From Rhizobiaceae bacterium (lineage in GTDB: Bacteria; Pseudomonadota; Alphaproteobacteria; Rhizobiales; Rhizobiaceae), in assembly GCA_026981655.1 (NCBI GenBank), contig JALSIJ010000267.1:1-36687 (forward strand): a stretch of 36,687 nucleotides of DNA, given 5' to 3'. Below are positions 653 through 26,871 of this stretch, piece by piece. The first letter of the stretch is position 1, and every line of letters begins with the position of its first letter. Both the position numbers and the translations under genes were made by a program. Below the pieces are notes generated by a model that saw nothing but the letters and a program-made list of their open reading frames with translations, ran no database searches and was not told the origin of the DNA.

Positions 653-918
653 ATTGTGAGTGTGGAGAGTGATAGTTGTCTCACGGCTAACCCTCGCCAT
701 GCTCGGACCTGCGACGGCGCGCCTTTTTTAGTAGCTCAAGTTTTGCGCTTCCCCCGAATCAAGTCCGGGGTCAACGTGCAACTTGAGCTTTCGGGCGGCT
801 CGCTGTTTGCTTTGTTTGTCGTTCACGCCAGATGTGCAAGCACATCGCCTCCACGAGGGCGCCCTGTTCGGGCAGCTCGCTAGTCAGCTTGCTATACGGT
901 GAGATTAGCACTCACAAT
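653..918. repeat. Gap bounded by a 10-bp inverted repeat
   Basis: The gap between acnA and the DUF302 gene (635-1052) holds no convincing gene. It contains ATTGTGAGTG at 653-662 and its exact reverse complement CACTCACAAT at 909-918. A TCTCAC / GTGAGA pair lies just inside. This gives a long interrupted palindrome of about 266 bp. Within it sits the separate CTCAAGTT palindrome (724-790). The 82-codon open frame at 635-883 runs through these repeats and is not believed to be a gene. Confidence 0.5.
724..790 (+). repeat. CTCAAGTT palindromic repeat, copy 1
   Basis: The arms GCTCAAGTT (734-742) and AACTTGAGC (780-788) are inverted repeats. The same element recurs at about 25284-25337, with matching flanks (TAGTRGCTCAAG, then CAACGTGCAACTTGAGC). 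The loops differ. Here the loop carries an extra hairpin with CCCCG and CGGGG arms, absent from the other copy. The element is intergenic and the open frames through it in both places are repeat-driven. Confidence 0.75.
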
Positions 919-976: not shown

Positions 977-1038
977 CCGCTGCTTATGCAGCGCCCCCGC
1001 GGAGGCCGGGCGGAAGCCCGAATAGCCGTGAGCGAAAG
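977..1038 (-). repeat. GCTCACGGC palindromic repeat, unoccupied copy
   Basis: Read on the minus strand, this 62-bp block starts with CTTTCGCTCACGGC, has a compact GGGC-TTCC-GCCC hairpin, and ends with GGCGCTGCATAAGCAGCGG. The same order of blocks occurs on the plus strand at 25259-25372. There the small hairpin loop is interrupted by the CTCAAGTT element. This copy therefore looks like the form without the insertion. It lies just downstream of the DUF302 gene stop on the minus strand. Confidence 0.75.
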
Positions 1039-2508: not shown

Positions 2509-3342
2509 ATGCAACTGGAACAATTACGACAGAAGATTGCCAGGATCGAGCGGCGCAATATTACCTTTAAACCGTCGAACAATGGGCACAAGGGGGTAGC
2601 CGATCGTGGCTGGCAATCGGGCTGTGCGGCGATTGATGATGTTTTGCCGCAAGGTCGGCTGGCGTATGACGCTTTGCATGATTTTTCGACCTTTCGCAGC
2701 CGTGATACACCGGCAATGGATCATTTTGTTTTGGCTTTATTGCAACGGTTTTTGCAGACAAAGGAAGCGGGCGAAATTATCTGGTGTCAGAGCCATTTAA
2801 ACATGCGTGAACATGGGCACCCCTATGGGCCGGGGCTGAAGGCACTGGGGCTTGCGCCGGAACGGCTATTGTTTGTTTCTCTGCGCAAGGAGCATGATCT
2901 GGCTTTTGCTATGGAGGAAAGCCTGCGTTCGGGGGCGGTGGCGGCCGTTATTGGCGAGGGTGCACCAATTGGCTTTACCGCTTCACGAAGGCTTTCGATT
3001 GCCTGTCAGGAAATGGCAATTCCGTGCCTTTTTCTTAATAATACCAATACTTATGAGGCAAGTGCGGCGGCAACCCGCTGGCGCATTGCACCGGCAATTG
3101 GCCCGCCAAATGCGGCTGATCTCGATGGTCCGGGCATGGCTGCATGGTCGGTATCATTGTTACGCGCACGCGGTGGGTGCGCTCATCCGGGTAATCCTCC
3201 ATCGACGGTTTTTTGGAATGATGCGACGTATTCTTTCGATCTGGTTTCCACGGCTGGCAATCGAGCGCTGGCAGATAGGGCGCAAACGCGCCCGACGGTT
3301 CGCTCCGCTTACCCGGCAGGACGAATTGGAAAGGCAGTATAA
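2509..3342 (+). CDS. imuA: ImuA, mutasome accessory protein
   Basis: ImuA (277 residues) is the RecA/SulA-like member of the ImuA-ImuB-DnaE2 mutasome, which performs error-prone translesion synthesis after DNA damage. Family features are the N-terminal LRQKIARIE helix, the GCAAIDDVLPQGRLAYDALHDF segment, the WCQSHLNMREHGHPYGPGL region and the C-terminal RWRIAPA...WNDATYSFDL stretch. A clean Walker A motif is not visible in the place where RecA has it. No good Shine-Dalgarno sequence precedes the ATG. The last 122 bp overlap the start of imuB in another frame, but the C-terminus still resembles family members, so the overlap appears real. Transcription should come from the SOS promoter at 2359-2388. 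Confidence 0.92.
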   Translation: MQLEQLRQKIARIERRNITFKPSNNGHKGVADRGWQSGCAAIDDVLPQGRLAYDALHDFSTFRSRDTPAMDHFVLALLQRFLQTKEAGEIIWCQSHLNMREHGHPYGPGLKALGLAPERLLFVSLRKEHDLAFAMEESLRSGAVAAVIGEGAPIGFTASRRLSIACQEMAIPCLFLNNTNTYEASAAATRWRIAPAIGPPNAADLDGPGMAAWSVSLLRARGGCAHPGNPPSTVFWNDATYSFDLVSTAGNRALADRAQTRPTVRSAYPAGRIGKAV

Positions 3343-4850: not shown

Positions 4851-7800
4851 ATGATGGTGCATGAAATTCCCTATGCGGAATTACAATGTGTGACAAATTT
4901 TTCCTTTTTGCGCGGGGCATCACATCCGCACGAACTGGTGGAAGAGGCGCACCGGCTGGGCCACCGGGCCATCGGCATTGCTGATCATAATTCCTTTGCA
5001 GGCATAGTGCGCACCCACATTGCGGCAAAGAAAATTGGACTAAAATTGCTGGTTGGCTGCCGGATAAACACGCTGGAGGGGATGAGCTTTATTTGCTATC
5101 CGCATGATCGTGCCGCCTATGGGCGTCTTTCAAAATTGTTGAGCAAAGGAAAACTCGCCGCGCCAAAAGGCGCGTGCTATCTGGGTTTTGATGAGGTGCT
5201 GCCAGCGCTTGCCGGTTGCTGTGTGATTGGGCTTGTGGGGAGATCAAATTTTGAGCCAGCCTTCCTTGCCAAATTAAAAGCCGCGGTGCCTGATAATTTG
5301 TGGATTGCCGCACACTATCTTTATCGTGGTGATGATCGCCGCCGCATGCAGCAACTTGCAGAACTATCGAGGGAAATGGGTATTCCACTGATTGCCACCA
5401 ATGATGTGCATTATCATATTCCCGAGCGCCGCCCCTTGCAGGATGTGGTGACGTGTATTCGCGAGAAATGCACCATTGAAAAAGCCGGTTATCTGCTTGC
5501 GGCCAATAGCGAGCGGCATTTGAAACCGCCTGAGGAAATGGCGCGGTTGTTTGAAAAATATCCGCAGGCTCTGGCCGGTATAGCTATCATCATTGAGCGC
5601 TGTAGCTTTAGTCTGGATGATCTTTCCTATAATTATCCCAATGAGCCGGTGCCAAACGGCAAAACCCCGCAGCAGCAATTGGAGAATCTTACCTGGGAGG
5701 GGGCGAAGTTTTATTACCCCGATGGATTGCCGGACCGGGTGCGGGTACTTTTGTTAAAGGAATTTGCCCTGATCAAAAAACTGAAATATGCGCCCTATTT
5801 CCTTACCGTTTATGACATTGTAGCCTTTGCCCGGCGCGAGGAGATTTTATGTCAGGGGCGGGGGTCGGCGGCCAATTCCGCAGTTTGCTATTGCCTTGGT
5901 ATTACGGCGGTGGATCCGGCTACCTCGTCTTTATTGTTCGAGCGCTTTTTGTCGGAATCGCGCAAGGAGCCGCCCGATATTGATGTGGATTTTGAACATG
6001 AACGGCGCGAGGAGGTTATTCAATATATCTACCGGCGCTATGGCCGCCACCGGGCGGGGATTGCCGCAACGGTGATTTCCTACCGCCCGCGCAGTGCGGT
6101 GCGTGAGGTGGGCAAGGTGATGGGCTTGAGTGAGGATGTAACCTCGTCGCTGGCCTCATCCGTCTGGGGCTCATGGGGGGCGGATATGCCGGAAAGTCAG
6201 GTGAAGGAAGCAGGCCTTGATATTGATGACCCGCATTTGCGCCGCACGATTATATTAACGCGGCAATTGCTCGGTTTTCCGCGCCATCTTTCCCAGCATG
6301 TGGGCGGGTTTGTTTTAACCGAAGACCCGCTGGAGGAAATGATGCCGATTGGCAATGCGGCGATGGAGGAGCGCACCTTTATTGAGTGGGACAAGGATGA
6401 TATCGACGCGCTGAAAATCCTTAAAATTGATGTGCTGGCGCTTGGCATGTTGACCTGTATCCGCAAATGCTTTGATTTTATTGATGTCCATTACGGCAAG
6501 AAATATACGCTCGCCTCAATGCCGAAGGAAGATCCTGAAACCTATCAGATGTTGCAAAGGGCCGATGCTATTGGTGTATTTCAGGTGGAAAGCCGGGCGC
6601 AGTTAAACATGTTACCTCGGCTGAAGCCGTCGAGGTTTTACGATCTGGTAATTGAAGTGGCGATCGTGCGCCCCGGCCCCATTCAGGGCGATATGGTGCA
6701 CCCCTATCTGCGTCGCCGTGACGGAATTGACAAGGTTGAATATCCATCTCCCTCTCCAGAACATGGGCATCCAGATGAGCTAAAACGTATTCTCGGGCGC
6801 ACATTGGGGGTGCCCCTGTTTCAGGAACAGGCGATGCAGATTGCCATTGATGCGGCGAAATTTTCGCCCGATGAGGCGAATGACTTGCGCCGGGCAATGG
6901 CGACTTTCCGCCGGATGGGGACAATCCATAAGCTGGAGAAAAAGATGGTTAGCCGGATGATTGCCCGTGGTTATGAGCCGGAGTTTGCCCAGCGCTGTTT
7001 TAACCAGATCAAGGGCTTTGGTGAATATGGGTTTCCCGAAAGCCATGCGGCAAGTTTCGCGCTTTTGGTTTATGCCTCATCGTGGATTAAATGCCACTAC
7101 CCGGATGTGTTTTGTGCAGGGCTTTTGAATTCCCAGCCGATGGGTTTTTATGCCCCGGCGCAGATTGTTCGTGATGCGCGGGAACATAATATCGAGGTGC
7201 GGCCGGTGGACGTTAATTTCAGTGATTGGGATAATAAGCTGGAGGTGGTTGAGGGAAAATTTCATGCGGTGCGGTTGGGTTTTCGTCAGGTGGATGGCTT
7301 GCGCCGTGAGGTGATGGAGGCGTTTATGGAAGTGCGGAATGAATATAAAGTGCCCCTCACCTCAATCGAGCAAATTCGCCACAAGACGAGCCTTTCAATC
7401 GCGGTGCTGGAACGGCTGGCGGCGGCAGATTGTTTTCGTTCGCTCGATGTTGACCGTCGGCAGGCATTGTGGAAAGTGCGCGGTCTGGTGAGTGATGCGC
7501 AATTGCCGCTGTTTGAAGTAAGTAATACTGATGCATTGGGGCAAGACCACAAGGTCGAATTACCAAAAATGCCACTTTCAGAACATGTGGTTGCTGATTA
7601 TCAAACCCATAGGCTTTCGCTCAAGGCCCATCCAATGAGCTTTTTGCGTGAAGATTATTCAAGCCGCCGGATTATTTCAGCGCGGGATCTCTTGAAAACC
7701 CGTAACGGGCAATATGTGCAAATTGCCGGTGTGGTGCTGGTGCGGCAAAAGCCCGGCACGGCCAAGGGTGTGGTGTTCATGACGCTGGAAGACGAAGGCG

Positions 7801-8235: not shown

Positions 8236-8343
8236 CCCTCCGTGGCAGGGCAAGCATTGCGTTTAGTGAGCGCACGTGTTTACGCGCAAGCGAACGACTA
8301 GGAAGCAATGTGCCAGCCAGTGAACGGACGGACGGCCGGAGGG
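8236..8343 (+). repeat. CCTCCGTGGCAGGGC palindromic repeat, occupied copy
   Basis: This 108-bp block is bounded by CCCTCCG (8236-8242) and CGGAGGG (8337-8343). It shares outer blocks with the minus-strand copy at 2401-2478: CCTCCGTGGCAGGGC at one side, and AGCCAGTGAACGGA with a CGGCCGGA tail at the other. The centre is a hairpin with GCATTGC and GCAATG arms. A complete 36-bp repeat (8265-8300) sits in its loop. The other copy has only a short loop at this place. Confidence 0.7.
8265..8300 (+). repeat. 36-bp repeat, copy 1 (nested)
   Basis: AGTGAGCGCACGTGTTTACG is followed by 16 more bases ending GAACGACTA. It matches 9656-9691 at 35 of 36 positions. A diverged reverse copy is at 10568-10599. 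Here it lies in the loop of another palindrome. Confidence 0.8.
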
Positions 8344-8403: not shown

Positions 8404-9660
8404 ATGCAAGATAAGGAAATATCGACAAAAAATACTAACTGGCCCGCAAATCACCCGCCGGAAGCCATTTCGCTTGAAGAACAGCGCAAGCTATGGCGGA
8501 TGAAATATGCCCAAAAAGATGTCGAGGCCGGCATCGAGGTTGATGATGATTTTGAGCCATTCAACCAGATCAATGATATGTTCACCCGTGCATTTTGGGA
8601 TGACACTATTCGCTCCAAAAAAACTGATGCGTTTTTCAACGGACACCGGGTTGCGGCAAATCCTCGAAAGGTGGAAGGTTTCCGCCAGCGTGATCTGGCC
8701 CTGCGCAATGCGGCATGGGCTGTTTCCAATGTGATTTCCTCACGCGGTATGAGCGAGGGTAAGCGTGAAGGTTTTCAGGCCCCTATTGAAGAGGGCGGCC
8801 CGATTGCGCCAGAAAAAATCGAGATTGAAGATCTTGACCGTCATACCGGTGAGATCAAGCGGATTGCAAAATTATTCGGTGCAGACCTTGTCGGCGTTAC
8901 TGATTATGACGAGCGCTGGCACTATTCCAAGCGGGTGGACACAAGAGATTTTAGTGAGGCGGATAGCGAACTGCCCGAAGGATTGAGTAGCGTTATCGTT
9001 ATGGGCCATGCGATGGACCATGATCTGGTCGCGACCTACCCGTCGGCGCTTGCCGGGGCCGCAACCGGTATGGAATATTCTCATGAGGTGGCAATCGTTG
9101 TGCAGCTGGTCACCTATATTCGCAATCTTGGCTATAACGCTGTTGGTTCGATGAATGATACGGCATTGGTTATACCCTATGCGGTGAAAGCCGGGCTTGG
9201 GGAATATGGCCGCAATCAAATGGTGATTACGCCTGAATTTGGCCCGCGTGTGCGGTTTTCAAAAATATTTACCGATATGCCGATAGCGCATGATCGCCCG
9301 CAGCCAAAAGGCGCGCGGGCGTTTTGTGATATTTGTACAAAATGTGCTGATGCCTGTCCGCCAAAAGCACTGCCCTTTGGTCCGCCTGAAAGCGGTGGAG
9401 AAAATCAATCCACCATCAGCGGAGTCAAAAAATGGTCGGCCAATTGTGAAAAATGCTTTGGCTATTGGGCAGCGATGGGAACTGATTGCGCTATTTGTAT
9501 GCGGGTTTGCCCGTTTAACCGGCCCTATGATGGCTGGAAGGATCAGCTGTTTTTGAAGCTTGCCTATAGTCGTTTTAGAAGGTTGGCGCTTTGGTGGGAC
9601 GATAAAAGTAGCCGGGCCGAGCGGGTTAAACCAAAAGCCTGGTGGGGGAATTTCAAGTGA
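8404..9660 (+). CDS. RdhA/QueG-like cobalamin iron-sulfur protein
   Basis: A 418-residue protein resembling the catalytic domain of reductive dehalogenases and the related epoxyqueuosine reductase QueG, enzymes that use corrinoid and two 4Fe-4S clusters. The first cluster motif is Cys308-x2-Cys311-x2-Cys314-x3-Cys318-Pro. The second is Cys348, Cys351, Cys362, Cys365 and Cys369-Pro, with the long inserted loop typical of RdhA. The AGLGEYGRNQMVITPEFGPRVR segment matches the cobalamin-binding region of both families. There is no twin-arginine signal peptide and no membrane anchor gene beside it, so it is probably a cytoplasmic protein and its substrate is unknown. No strong ribosome site precedes the ATG; the gene stands alone. 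Its TGA stop lies inside a 36-bp repeat. A QueG role is less likely because of the long N-terminal extension and RdhA-type second motif. Confidence 0.8.
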   Translation: MQDKEISTKNTNWPANHPPEAISLEEQRKLWRMKYAQKDVEAGIEVDDDFEPFNQINDMFTRAFWDDTIRSKKTDAFFNGHRVAANPRKVEGFRQRDLALRNAAWAVSNVISSRGMSEGKREGFQAPIEEGGPIAPEKIEIEDLDRHTGEIKRIAKLFGADLVGVTDYDERWHYSKRVDTRDFSEADSELPEGLSSVIVMGHAMDHDLVATYPSALAGAATGMEYSHEVAIVVQLVTYIRNLGYNAVGSMNDTALVIPYAVKAGLGEYGRNQMVITPEFGPRVRFSKIFTDMPIAHDRPQPKGARAFCDICTKCADACPPKALPFGPPESGGENQSTISGVKKWSANCEKCFGYWAAMGTDCAICMRVCPFNRPYDGWKDQLFLKLAYSRFRRLALWWDDKSSRAERVKPKAWWGNFK

Positions 9661-9691
9661 GCGCACGCGTTTACGCGCAAGCGAACGACTA
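9656..9691 (+). repeat. 36-bp repeat, copy 2 (supplies a stop codon)
   Basis: This copy is identical to 8265-8300 except for one base. The TGA stop codon of the RdhA-like gene (9658-9660) is formed by bases 3-5 of the element, so the reading frame ends inside the repeat. Confidence 0.8.
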
Positions 9692-9714
9692 AAAAGGGGA
9701 GTGAAATTTTGGAC

Positions 9715-10567: not shown

Positions 10568-10599
10568 CGTTTGCTTGCGCGTATACACGTGGGCTTACT
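10568..10599 (-). repeat. 36-bp repeat, diverged copy 3
   Basis: The reverse complement reads AGTAAGCCCACGTGTATACG, then CGCAAGCAAACG, and aligns with the two other copies with a few changes. It lies between the DUF2794 stop and the shared terminator. Confidence 0.6.
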
Positions 10600-10681
10600 T
10601 GATGCCCTACGCGCGATTGCTTTTTAGGTGATCCAAATCTTGCGAGACTTCGCCACGTGCGATTTGAATTGATAAATACAA

Positions 10682-24306: not shown

Positions 24307-25062
24307 ATGGATTGGGGAATTCACAAATTGGCAAAGATTTTTACGCTGTTGATATTTTCAACGGTTTTTCTTTCAAGCTGCAACAGTACCACCGGAGCGC
24401 TGAAAGTATCCGATACGGCTTCTGCAAATGCAGGCGCGCGCGCAGGAAACCTGCGGGTCGTTGCGGTATTGCCGCCACCACAAAATACCAGACAGGGTGC
24501 GGACCAGCTAATTTCTGAAAATGACCTTTTGGAGGTCGACGTATTTCAGGTTGATGATCTTGATCGAACGGTGCGGGTTGACTCAAATGGCCGTATTTCA
24601 ATGCCGCTCATTGGTGTTATACAGGCTGCAGGCAAGACTATTCCGGCAGTTGAAGCTGAATTAGAGCGCAAATATGGAGCAAATTATTTGCAGTCGCCGG
24701 AAATTACCGTATTCATGAAAGAGTCTTCCGGCCAGCGGATGACTCTGGACGGCCAGTTTTCAAGACCGGGCATTTATCCGACGACTACGAGCAGCAGCCT
24801 TGTGCAAGCTGTGGCACAGGCGGGTGGTTTCACCAAATTGGCTGACGAATCAAAAATATACGTATTTCGCCAATTCGGTGAAACCAAGCTTGTGGCTAAT
24901 TACAGTATGAAAGAAATTCGCAACGGCAAAAAACCCGATCCCCGGCTTTTTGGCGGAGATGTGGTAGTTGCTTTTACATCGAGCTCCAAGGTTGCCATCA
25001 ATAATTTAAAAAGTGCACTTGGTCTGGCGTCCTCTGCTGCGCGCATTGCTGTGCCGTTCTAA
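24307..25062 (+). CDS. Wza-type polysaccharide export lipoprotein
   Basis: An outer-membrane polysaccharide export protein (251 residues from the ATG at 24307). The signal sequence ends in a lipobox LSSC (Cys25), so the protein is a lipoprotein. The Poly_export domain begins near ISENDLLEVDVFQVDDLDRTVRVDSNGRISMPLIG, followed by an SLBB-like part (MTLDGQFSRPGIYP...LVQAVAQAGGF). The transmembrane helix of E. coli Wza is not evident and the protein is shorter, as in many rhizobial homologues. The frame is open to an ATG at 24229, but the shorter form gives a normal signal peptide. Its TAA stop is formed with the first bases of a tandem repeat. The AT-rich gap 24096-24306 probably holds a promoter. 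Confidence 0.9.
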   Translation: MDWGIHKLAKIFTLLIFSTVFLSSCNSTTGALKVSDTASANAGARAGNLRVVAVLPPPQNTRQGADQLISENDLLEVDVFQVDDLDRTVRVDSNGRISMPLIGVIQAAGKTIPAVEAELERKYGANYLQSPEITVFMKESSGQRMTLDGQFSRPGIYPTTTSSSLVQAVAQAGGFTKLADESKIYVFRQFGETKLVANYSMKEIRNGKKPDPRLFGGDVVVAFTSSSKVAINNLKSALGLASSAARIAVPF

Positions 25063-25170
25063 AGCTTGTCTCCTAAAAGTGGTCACCGGTTTTAGGAATA
25101 AAGACATGCGATAGCAAACAAAGCTTGTCTCCTAAAAGTGGTCACCGGTTTTAGGAATAAAGACATGCGA
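25061..25170. repeat. Tandem copies of a rhizobial-type intergenic repeat
   Basis: A 50-base block beginning AAAGCTTGTCTCCTAAAAGT occurs at 25061 and again at 25120, identical and 59 bases apart. Its AAGTGGTCACCGGTTTT...ATAAAGACATGCG core resembles an intergenic palindrome frequent in rhizobial and Brucella-like genomes (recalled pattern). A related copy on the other strand is at 29649-29749. The rest of the gap to 25452 contains the nested repeats below and no credible gene. Confidence 0.8.
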
Positions 25171-25258
25171 AAACAGATAGATAAAGCATGTTGAGTGAAT
25201 GCTAGTGAACGCGAAATGCTATAGAGCGTATCCGTCTTTGACGGAATCACCCTATTTT

Positions 25259-25372
25259 CTTTCGCTCACGGCCATTCGGGCTTTTCTAGTGGCTCAAGTT
25301 TTGCGCTTCGCGTTGCTCAACGTGCAACTTGAGCTATGCCCGGCCTTCGCTAGGGCGGTGCATAAGCAGCGG
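25259..25372 (+). repeat. GCTCACGGC palindromic repeat, copy interrupted by another repeat
   Basis: The outer blocks match the reverse complement of 977-1038: CTTTCGCTCACGGC and ATTCGGGCTT (25259-25283), then GCCCGGCCT and GGCGGTGCATAAGCAGCGG (25338-25372). In the other copy GGGC and GCCC are separated by a four-base loop. Here a CTCAAGTT element of about 54 bases (25284-25337) occupies that place, with arms GCTCAAGTT (25292-25300) and AACTTGAGC (25326-25334). Confidence 0.75.
25284..25337 (+). repeat. CTCAAGTT palindromic repeat, copy 2 (nested)
   Basis: This is the second copy of the element at 724-790, with the same arms and flanks and a shorter loop. It is inserted in the hairpin loop of the GCTCACGGC repeat. 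Confidence 0.75.
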
Positions 25373-25452
25373 GCCACAATTCGTGGCCTGACATGCTTCT
25401 ATGTAAACATGACGCAGTTTAGAAAAGCGCAAGCGCCAAAGAGCTGCGCAAT

Positions 25453-26871
25453 TTAACTGTCTGAATTGCGATTATAGACATCTTCCAGGCGAATAATATC
25501 GTCCTCGCCAAGATAGTCTCCGGTTTGAACTTCAATCAGCACCACCGGCTCCTTTCCGTGGTTTGCCAACCGGTGCACAGCGCCAAGCGGCACATAGACA
25601 GACTGGTTTGGCTCCAGAATTCGTACATCATCATTAATTGTTACCTCCGGATTGCCGCTAACAACCACCCAATGTTCTGAACGGTGCCGGTGTTTTTGTA
25701 GAGATAAAACGCCCCCAGGAGTAATGACAATACGTTTGACCTGATATTGATCATCCATATCCAGACGCTCGTAATTTCCCCAGGGGCGGAATATTTTCAG
25801 AGCCTCATTGGCCTCGACCCGACCGTTGTCTTGTAAACTAGTGACCAGCTTTTTGACATTTTCTGCCTGAGATTTTGATGTCACAAGCACCGCATCACTG
25901 GTGGTGATTACCGCCACATCATCAACACCGACAAGGGTTGTTAATTTGCCGACCGAATGCACAATATTGTTGCGGCCATCGACAATTTCCGCATCACCAA
26001 TTATGACATTGCCTGCATCGGACTTGTCTGAGACCTCCCAAACGGCTTCCCATGATCCGACATCCGACCATAGATAGTCGACAGGGAATACGGCCGCCTT
26101 TTTAGTTTGCTCCATAATTGCATAATCGACAGAAATTGATGGCGAACGCTCAAATGCTCCCTTCTCCAGACGCAGAAAATCAAGATCAGATTCAGCATTT
26201 TCGTGAGCTTCTTTCACCGTATCCAAAATTTCTGGGGCAAGAATAATCATCTCGTCAATAAAGGATTGTGCCTTGAATAGAAAATTACCGCTGTTCCACA
26301 AATAGCCGTCCTGTATATATTGTTCAGCCGTTTTTTGATCTGGTTTTTCGACGAATTTATCCACCTTGTAACAGCCGCCACGGCTTATCTCATCACCGGG
26401 CAAAATATAGCCATAGCCGGTTGCAGGTTTGATTGGCTTAATACCAAATGTGGTAAGGTGTCCGGTGTCAGCATCTTTTACTGCTTGGGATACAGCTTTT
26501 GAAAATGCAGCAATATCGGGTATCTGGTGGTCTGCCGCCAGGATTAAAACAACGGCTTCCGGGTTGCGGGCAATTGCGCTTAAACAGCCAGCTGTAATTG
26601 CGGCACAGGAATTGCGACGGGCCGGCTCTAGCAATATGTCGGCAGTAACGCCGATATTTCGCAAATCTTCGGCGATTAAAAACCGATGGCTCTCGGCACA
26701 GACAAAAATTGGCCTGGGGTCAAATATCTCTGACTGGCATCTCAATGCGGTTTCCTGAATGAGCGAATGCTCGCTCCCAAAGCTTAAAAACTGCTTTGGT
26801 TTGGAGTCTCTCGATAATGGCCAAAGGCGAGTGCCCGAACCGCCACTTAATATGACTGGAATTATTGCCAT
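25453..26871 (-). CDS. manC: Mannose-1-phosphate guanylyltransferase / mannose-6-phosphate isomerase
   Basis: A 472-residue bifunctional enzyme (AlgA/XanB/ManC type) that makes GDP-mannose for surface polysaccharide. The N-terminal nucleotidyltransferase has SGGSGTRLWPLSR near residues 9-21, AADHQI, and FVEKPD. The C-terminal type II isomerase cupin has RPWGNYERLD, the histidine cluster LQKHRHRSEHW and the YVPLGAVHRLAN segment. GAAGG lies seven bases before the ATG. It is convergent with the polysaccharide export gene and divergent from the MscS gene, so it forms its own transcription unit. The repeat cluster lies just after its 3' end. Confidence 0.95.
   Translation of the reverse strand: MAIIPVILSGGSGTRLWPLSRDSKPKQFLSFGSEHSLIQETALRCQSEIFDPRPIFVCAESHRFLIAEDLRNIGVTADILLEPARRNSCAAITAGCLSAIARNPEAVVLILAADHQIPDIAAFSKAVSQAVKDADTGHLTTFGIKPIKPATGYGYILPGDEISRGGCYKVDKFVEKPDQKTAEQYIQDGYLWNSGNFLFKAQSFIDEMIILAPEILDTVKEAHENAESDLDFLRLEKGAFERSPSISVDYAIMEQTKKAAVFPVDYLWSDVGSWEAVWEVSDKSDAGNVIIGDAEIVDGRNNIVHSVGKLTTLVGVDDVAVITTSDAVLVTSKSQAENVKKLVTSLQDNGRVEANEALKIFRPWGNYERLDMDDQYQVKRIVITPGGVLSLQKHRHRSEHWVVVSGNPEVTINDDVRILEPNQSVYVPLGAVHRLANHGKEPVVLIEVQTGDYLGEDDIIRLEDVYNRNSDS

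Follow-up and report, generated by a model that had tools for sequence, protein, structure and literature searches.

At 25259-25372 of the window (the whole stretch of 36,687 nucleotides that was analysed, from a Rhizobiaceae genome of 3.43 Mb in 273 contigs, G000, within a group of uncultured alphaproteobacteria) one hairpin repeat lies inside another, which raises the question of whether palindromic repeats enter the loops of other palindromes. The anatomy of the locus can be read directly from the DNA. The left arm of the outer hairpin, GGGC (25278-25281, + strand), and its right arm, GCCC (25338-25341, +), enclose 56 bases, as the original prediction had described; its "about 54" extra bases correspond to a net gain of 52 when the 56-base loop is compared with a four-base loop. 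The inner unit, hereafter the guest, fills this loop (25282-25337, +; match to the guest model R2 at 25280-25339, E = 3.4e-16). It consists of a foot TTTTCTAGTGG, a stem CTCAAGTT, the cap TTGCGC..GTGC, a stem AACTTGAG and a short right foot. The insert is thus more than the palindrome originally proposed, since the asymmetric foot TTTTCTAGTGG comes along with it.

The outer hairpin belongs to a larger repeat, the host, of ~148 nt with about six hairpins, the second of which (H2) owns the GGGC/GCCC arms in the G000 copies. A covariance model of 148 positions (R1), built from 19 empty host copies, placed the full occupied element with its insert at 25221-25422 (+; E = 1.8e-21), in the order terminal H1, loop-bearing H2, H3, H4, H5 and terminal H6. 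H1 and H6 were read by eye; the consensus fold of alignment A1 gives H2, H4 and H5, not a separate H1 or H6. The copy at 977-1038 (- strand) comprises the host core (H2-H4) with an empty H2, whose loop TTCC lies at 1012-1015, and H2 is empty there in the relative G003 as well. Judged by eye, the flanks of this copy are without both terminal hairpins, which identifies it as a core fragment. The two copies had been described as having the same outer blocks. This is correct for the core and incorrect beyond it, where a full element is compared with a fragment. Each copy lies between convergent predicted reading frames. The full element is preceded by a 56-nt repeat (AAAGCTTGTCTCCTAAAAGTGGTCACCGGTTTTAGG..) in two head-to-tail copies (25061-25175; 59-nt spacing, 96% alike), and similar sequence was noticed at further G003 loci.

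The guest was also thought to occur alone at 724-790. Its flanks there, GGCGCGCC and CGGGCGGCTCGCT, form the two arms of another palindrome, and a free-standing inner palindrome was therefore ruled out: the unit occupies the loop of a second host. This occupied second palindrome spans 716-804 (+), with the left arm at ~716-723, the guest at ~724-791 and the right arm CGGGCGGCTCGCT reaching 804; the site is occupied in G003 too. An empty copy of the second palindrome, GAGGGCGCCC-TGTT-CGGGCAGCTCGCT, is located at 855-881 (+). The guest at 724 itself carries a third-layer palindrome, CCCCGAATCAAGTCCGGGG, in its loop (752-770, approximate limits, +; pattern match 753-769). Another repeat that forms a hairpin, reading CGTTCGCTTGCGCGTAAACACGTGCGCTCACT on one of the strands, was seen at 8265-8305, 9656-9696 and 10568-10602; it shares the TTGCGC..ACGTGC cap with the guest superfamily and has a short loop.

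Are host and guest two repeats or parts of one? Chance similarity was excluded for the host by its outer 24-mer, which has 52 matches in G000 at ≤3 mismatches against 0 for the control. R1 matches to the host were obtained in all four genomes of the genus (G000-G003) and in G004 of the same family, among 11 of 61 searched genomes. In a wider draw under strict filters, R1 matched 37 of 297 genomes of the order, from 20 of 123 genera. The guest, a REP-like hairpin unit of ~55-70 nt that has a conserved cap and a 5' foot of its own, is distributed differently. A broad guest pattern (GTTTTGCGC..GTGCAAC) gave 47 matches in G000, 62 in G003, 0 in G001 (a genome only 72% complete) and 3 in G002. One of the three G002 matches seems plausible, and none is convincing in G001 or G002, both of which carry the host. 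Read backwards, the pattern had no match in G000-G003, which shows that the 47 copies are not due to chance. The exact guest pattern was present in G000 and G003 only among the 61 genomes. A stricter CTCAAGTT pattern was run against one genome per species (84,980 genomes, a set that may lack entries for the genome the window comes from) and retrieved the MAG Alphaproteobacteria Dive100_bin10.37, corresponding to G003, together with one Nostoc match; the latter was rejected as a guest member, as it is without the CAACGTGC part. R2 matched 6 of the 297 order genomes under strict filters, including G102 and G138, both without a host match. At the guest loci of these two genomes the cap is kept, and the stems differ in sequence yet stay complementary. 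Pair counts in the guest alignment itself are inflated, because its units were chosen by a pattern demanding TTGCGC..GTGC and complementary arms. Because their genome distributions differ, a direct observation, guest and host are two distinct families, which come together in G000 and G003, as the original prediction of two different repeats had supposed. Tandem arrays of the guest were also noticed, one in G003 (L222, C22:16395-16796; about eight units, 53-nt spacing) and one in G102, a genome of another family (L348; several units, ~50-nt spacing).

We then asked where guests lie with respect to hairpins. Among 109 guest copies, 16 were classed as tandem; the other 93, which still hold at least one tandem copy (L222:1765), were sorted by their flanking arms. 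Arms of recognised host palindromes flank the guest on both sides in 63 of the 93. Both H2 arms were found in 48 (random positions of the same stretches pass at 2.7%), and five guests lie in the second palindrome (GGGCGCCC..CGGGCGGCTCGCT; random 0.01%), which was called by its right arm and has a stem of 4-5 bp in all five copies. Ten are enclosed by both arms of a guest-type hairpin (random 0.26%) and are thus self-nested. A further 16 meet only a lax rule for the H2 left arm, and 14 fit no host rule. The lax rule is passed by 64 copies and by 11% of random positions, and a stricter form keeps 58 (random 0.8%). Inspection by eye found four of the 64, all from the 16 with the left arm only, to be wrong: L267 has a guest-type host, L275 is coding, L280 is unclear and L222:1765 is tandem. 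Another four of these copies each open a tandem array in H2. In L275 (G003, 3137-3196) the guest apparently lies within a coding region with internal repeats, outside any hairpin loop.

The orientation of the guest in H2 is constant. G000 and G003 together gave 48 long parsed H2 loops; the guest is forward in 47 of them, and none is truly reversed in H2. The 48th loop is a parsing artefact (L071/L134), where by eye the guest lies past H3, within the H4 region, and points in the opposite direction to the host. Insertion into a hairpin loop in one orientation was thus borne out, and other hosts show the same mode of entry. Nor do the two blocks always occur together, since host and guest are also found apart, and the insertion points are not scattered regardless of loops. 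All 20 parsed host copies of G002 have a four-base H2 loop; the G002 stretches were picked by R1 matches, which favour empty copies, and the whole-genome guest pattern is the unbiased test. Among the alignments listed, alternative loops are also present in H3 and H5 of the host.

The arms of H2, in stems of several different sequences, still match each other across the insert. The left arm pairs with its own partner over 4.19 bp, compared to 3.33 bp (sd 0.14) for shuffled partners (0 of 500 shuffles, n = 59). In a position-limited test an H2 stem of at least 5 bp was present in 24 of 64 copies, a modest excess over random positions (7.6%), and the duplex energy of the guest flanks separated poorly from the control, 37 of 108 copies lying past the control's 5% line. 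In predicted minimum-energy folds of the occupied element, the H2 stem is not closed around the insert.

The third layer shows a similar preference for loops. Whole genomes were scanned with the palindrome pattern CCCGGATCAAGTCCGGG (≤2 mismatches), because counts within the fetched stretches are biased by the choice of stretches. The pattern was found 20 times in G000, 24 times in G003, not in G001 and twice in G002, where both sites lie elsewhere than in guest loops. In the best 28 of 44 contexts (14 each from G000 and G003, one of them ending at a contig end) the palindrome lies within a guest-type loop in 28 of 28, and a CGTC tag beside it was found in none of these best 28. A relative of the third palindrome sits directly in host H2 at C35:33152 of G003 (L122).

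How does the host itself spread? Whole-element empty sites were observed, and they are compatible with TA duplication. Twelve filled/empty junctions were printed, of which four are readable. Only L060/L139 has TA at both ends, and TA once when empty; the other three have one changed base at one end each, TG in L121:12311/L197, AA in L122:7068/L196 and CA in L272/L165. The host probably duplicates TA on insertion. By eye, its ends appear to carry imperfect TAGANNNTTTCAT-like terminal inverted repeats on both sides, which are clearer in the relative L354, and the best reading of the host from its sequence is a MITE-like element. Small repeats ending in TA, such as ERIC, Correia/NEMIS and RUP, are linked to IS630. 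Genes of the IS630-type DDE_3 family are present in G000, in G002 and, in two pieces, in G003, and these candidates could serve the mobility of the host. Matches of both flanks of an item between genomes are rare: 0 of 105 from G000 to G002, 0 of 126 from G003 to G002 and 1 of 20 from G002 to G003.

The presence of one occupied and one empty site in the same window had been taken to suggest repeated insertion. To weigh this, occupancy was mapped on a host tree. A single clade of occupied hosts was rejected (AU p = 0.0004), and at least 30 changes of the H2 state are required for 129 copies (47 occupied; 129 of 132 parsed copies of G000 and G003), compared to a mean of 38.5 and a minimum of 29 after shuffling; this count is rough, as the tree rests on ~134 columns and copies possibly recombine. 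In 30 of 123 cases a host copy and its nearest neighbour disagree in state, where shuffling gives a mean of 55; for 17 of the 41 occupied copies the nearest one is empty. Since nearest copies differ less often than shuffled ones, H2 occupancy is partly passed on together with the host, a number of changes having also taken place.

Such partial inheritance would be expected if the guest had inserted once or twice by chance and was then only co-amplified with the host and exchanged by gene conversion, with no targeting of loops. The constant orientation in H2 fits this explanation, and so does the limited set of feet: TTTTCTARNGG in 38 of 48 long loops, and a second main type in 7 of 48. GTAG beside the stem is not the usual foot, and by eye it is present before the stem in the copy at 724 of the window. 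We nevertheless regard co-amplification without loop targeting as unlikely. The guest with its foot occupies the loops of at least three unrelated hosts, as is directly seen, and the third palindrome always lies in a guest-type loop in the best 28 of 44 contexts, both of which speak against co-amplification alone.

Further evidence on this alternative comes from matching sites in G003, the nearest comparison relative (median identity 90% over 111 aligned blocks of ≥300 bases). The second-host hairpin at 855-881 is empty in G000, and its matching G003 loop, with a nearly identical left arm, is filled with a long-loop guest. This one filled/empty pair of matching loops is a direct observation that speaks against co-amplification only. 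No target duplication is visible at the filled G003 site. For the first host the picture is different. Fifteen rows of shared host loci were printed; five were dropped as neighbours or look-alikes and ten kept. At six of the ten, H2 agrees between the two genomes, being empty at four loci and occupied at two, and the host halves there are 83-99% identical except for one right half (67%). Among the alignments listed, L001/L152 is occupied in both genomes, and the nearly identical elements at C48:15289 of G000 and in C126 of G003 differ in two loops: that of the guest itself (short in G000, 16 nt in G003) and that of H5 (~42 nt longer in G003). The low value of 67% arises because this H5 difference upset the parse. 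The other four loci are discordant, with host halves 65-82% identical and one host inverted. Random host copies are 58-84% (left half) and 56-88% (right half) identical between the 5th and 95th percentiles. Since the discordant halves are as divergent as random copies, these sites hold another host copy rather than a simple loop gain, and the coexistence of occupied and empty sites is not in itself proof of repeated insertion. Gain or loss of an H2 guest within the same host copy was found at none of the ten shared loci, in line with co-amplification. One array also differs in size: G003 has about eight of its 53-nt units, G000 two. At the matching site L179/L160 (G000/G003) the host is in opposite orientation and a different copy, which points to independent insertion or replacement. 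In L154 (~6790-6990) we noticed that the right half of the host is replaced by an inverted piece of the host left arm, forming a fold-back around the guest.

If guests are inserted into loops, by what route? The guest's traits recall REP units and Y1-type logic. An unrecognised structure-specific transposase might place single-stranded REP-like units into extruded loops without target duplication. The discrete unit with its asymmetric foot, the constant H2 orientation and the filled second-host site free of a visible duplication would fit such an enzyme. The search for a gene points the other way, and we consider the transposase route quite doubtful. Y1_Tnp (PF01797, E 0.001) was not found in six of seven genomes with a guest match (G003, G102, G138, G197, G078 and G129), one of which is 58% complete and one of which has a single weak guest match. 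By eye, the Y1_Tnp gene of G000 resembles an ordinary IS200-type gene flanked by hairpins of its own. These absences and the IS200-like gene ruled out Y1/RAYT as the guest driver; an IS110-type enzyme (PF02371) was ruled out as well, none being found in G000-G003. No candidate for a guest transposase emerged from the families searched (Y1_Tnp, PF02371 and DDE_3).

The genomic location of the host brings in a further explanation, namely that the elements are retained for a role as RNA devices, either as terminators or as stability elements, and that the loop modules are selected functional variants. Of 152 parsed host copies, 15 overlap a called frame, 25 lie at the edge of a stretch, and the other 112 fall into called gaps, of which 58 are convergent, 53 tandem and 1 divergent. 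The 660 background gaps comprise 149 convergent, 402 tandem and 109 divergent ones; this background is local, with stretches chosen around repeats and frames called by a simple rule. Stems with compensated variants would also suit an RNA function, as would an excess of A.C over G.T mismatches, which would indicate a structure on one strand. Avoidance of promoters alone accounts for the location, and where both neighbouring genes share a strand the orientation of the host is even (32 to 29). Sites moreover differ between relatives. In Rfam, no match was found in the window at the gathering threshold, nor for 25200-25480 at E up to 10, and a known RNA family was ruled out on this ground. Retention as RNA devices is a highly improbable explanation. 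The mismatch counts derive from 114 distinct host stem variants (G000, G002 and G003 on A1), with A.C 61 versus G.T 20 on the displayed strand. The excess of A.C looks as if structure mattered on the undisplayed strand; the G.T pair of the guest, which was fixed by the pattern used for choosing units, points to the displayed strand.

Taken together, we lean slightly towards an explanation by stacked palindromic repeats, in which a MITE-like host received a few loop insertions of a REP-like guest and the composite then spread. The host would move as one unit, likely into TA sites, and take the contents of its loops along. The guest would have entered apical loops a few separate times, namely in host H2, in the second palindrome and in hairpins of its own kind, and the guest loop would in turn have taken up the third palindrome. 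Most present copies would have arisen by composite spread and exchange between copies rather than by fresh insertion. Loops may tolerate insertion because the stem stays intact around the insert. We infer that loops are entered rather than vacated, since relatives without the guest support gain over loss. Insertion might proceed by template switching during replication or by recombination at extruded hairpins. Such a route appears somewhat likelier than an enzyme, given that the families searched yielded no candidate for a guest transposase and given the presence of compensated stems, a fold-back and tandem arrays. Template switching is reported to create and maintain hairpins (PMC8794818). 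Several observations count against the explanation by stacked repeats: the lack of any H2 gain or loss within the same host copy at the shared loci, the clustering of occupancy with host similarity, the unclosed H2 in predicted folds, the 14 of 93 guests without a host together with the four wrong calls among the 16 left-arm copies, TA at both ends in only one of four readable junctions, and the strand asymmetry of stem mismatches.

A bolder version is that loops act as sockets, which unrelated palindromic modules repeatedly enter and leave in constant orientation and in several layers, by template switching free of any transposase. We hold this to be possible, if somewhat unlikely; if true, composite mobile repeats would be assembled combinatorially. 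Under either reading the case bears on how short bacterial palindromic repeats pick their landing places, travel together and gain complexity. G000 and G003 (~90% identical in shared stretches) carry the guest, and close relatives the host only. Each matching loop can be scored as filled or empty straight from the sequence, so that strain-level data from this lineage could separate loop insertion from co-amplification.

The insertion at the centre of symmetry had been called a targeting habit not recognised for known repeat families. Precedents do exist, in T. roseum REPs, in ISPsy8 and in Volvox organelles. REPs inside palindromes are described for T. roseum GTAG-23, A. variabilis GTAG-15 and H. 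neapolitanus CGTC-1 (PMC3733652). The T. roseum case resembles ours in that a REP lies within a host palindrome, and its target palindrome is given there as having hundreds of copies (PMC3733652). In contrast to those REPs, the guest is generally without a GTAG or CGTC tag, and here three layers and self-nesting are found. ISPsy8, IS1397 and IS621 insert into REPs, in the case of ISPsy8 on the axis of symmetry of a hairpin that is predicted to form (PMC1525189); the guest differs from them in being a geneless hairpin of 55-70 nt and not an IS. The host, with apparent imperfect terminal inverted repeats, TA-compatible sites and hairpins, is similar to ERIC, Correia/NEMIS and RUP as portrayed in PMC2229807, where Correia elements are noted to occur with and without a 50-bp internal sequence. 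Unlike these, it is an array of about six hairpins.

Compared by architecture alone, pneumococcal BOX elements (boxA-boxB(n)-boxC) also have outer modules around an optional, sometimes tandem inner module, whose folding barely affects the outer structure according to PMC3049150, and BOX, RUP and SPRITE are sometimes inserted into each other (PMC3049150). Unlike boxB, the guest also lies in unrelated and own-kind loops, differs from its host in taxonomic range and holds a third palindrome. Palindromes inserted in palindromes give rise to larger elements in Volvox organelle DNA (PMC2670323). That case is organellar and, as far as PMC2670323 shows, without filled/empty loop pairs. Within the literature searched, the new features of the present system are its three layers, self-nesting, a single guest across unrelated hosts, separate ranges of host and guest, and a filled/empty pair of matching loops.
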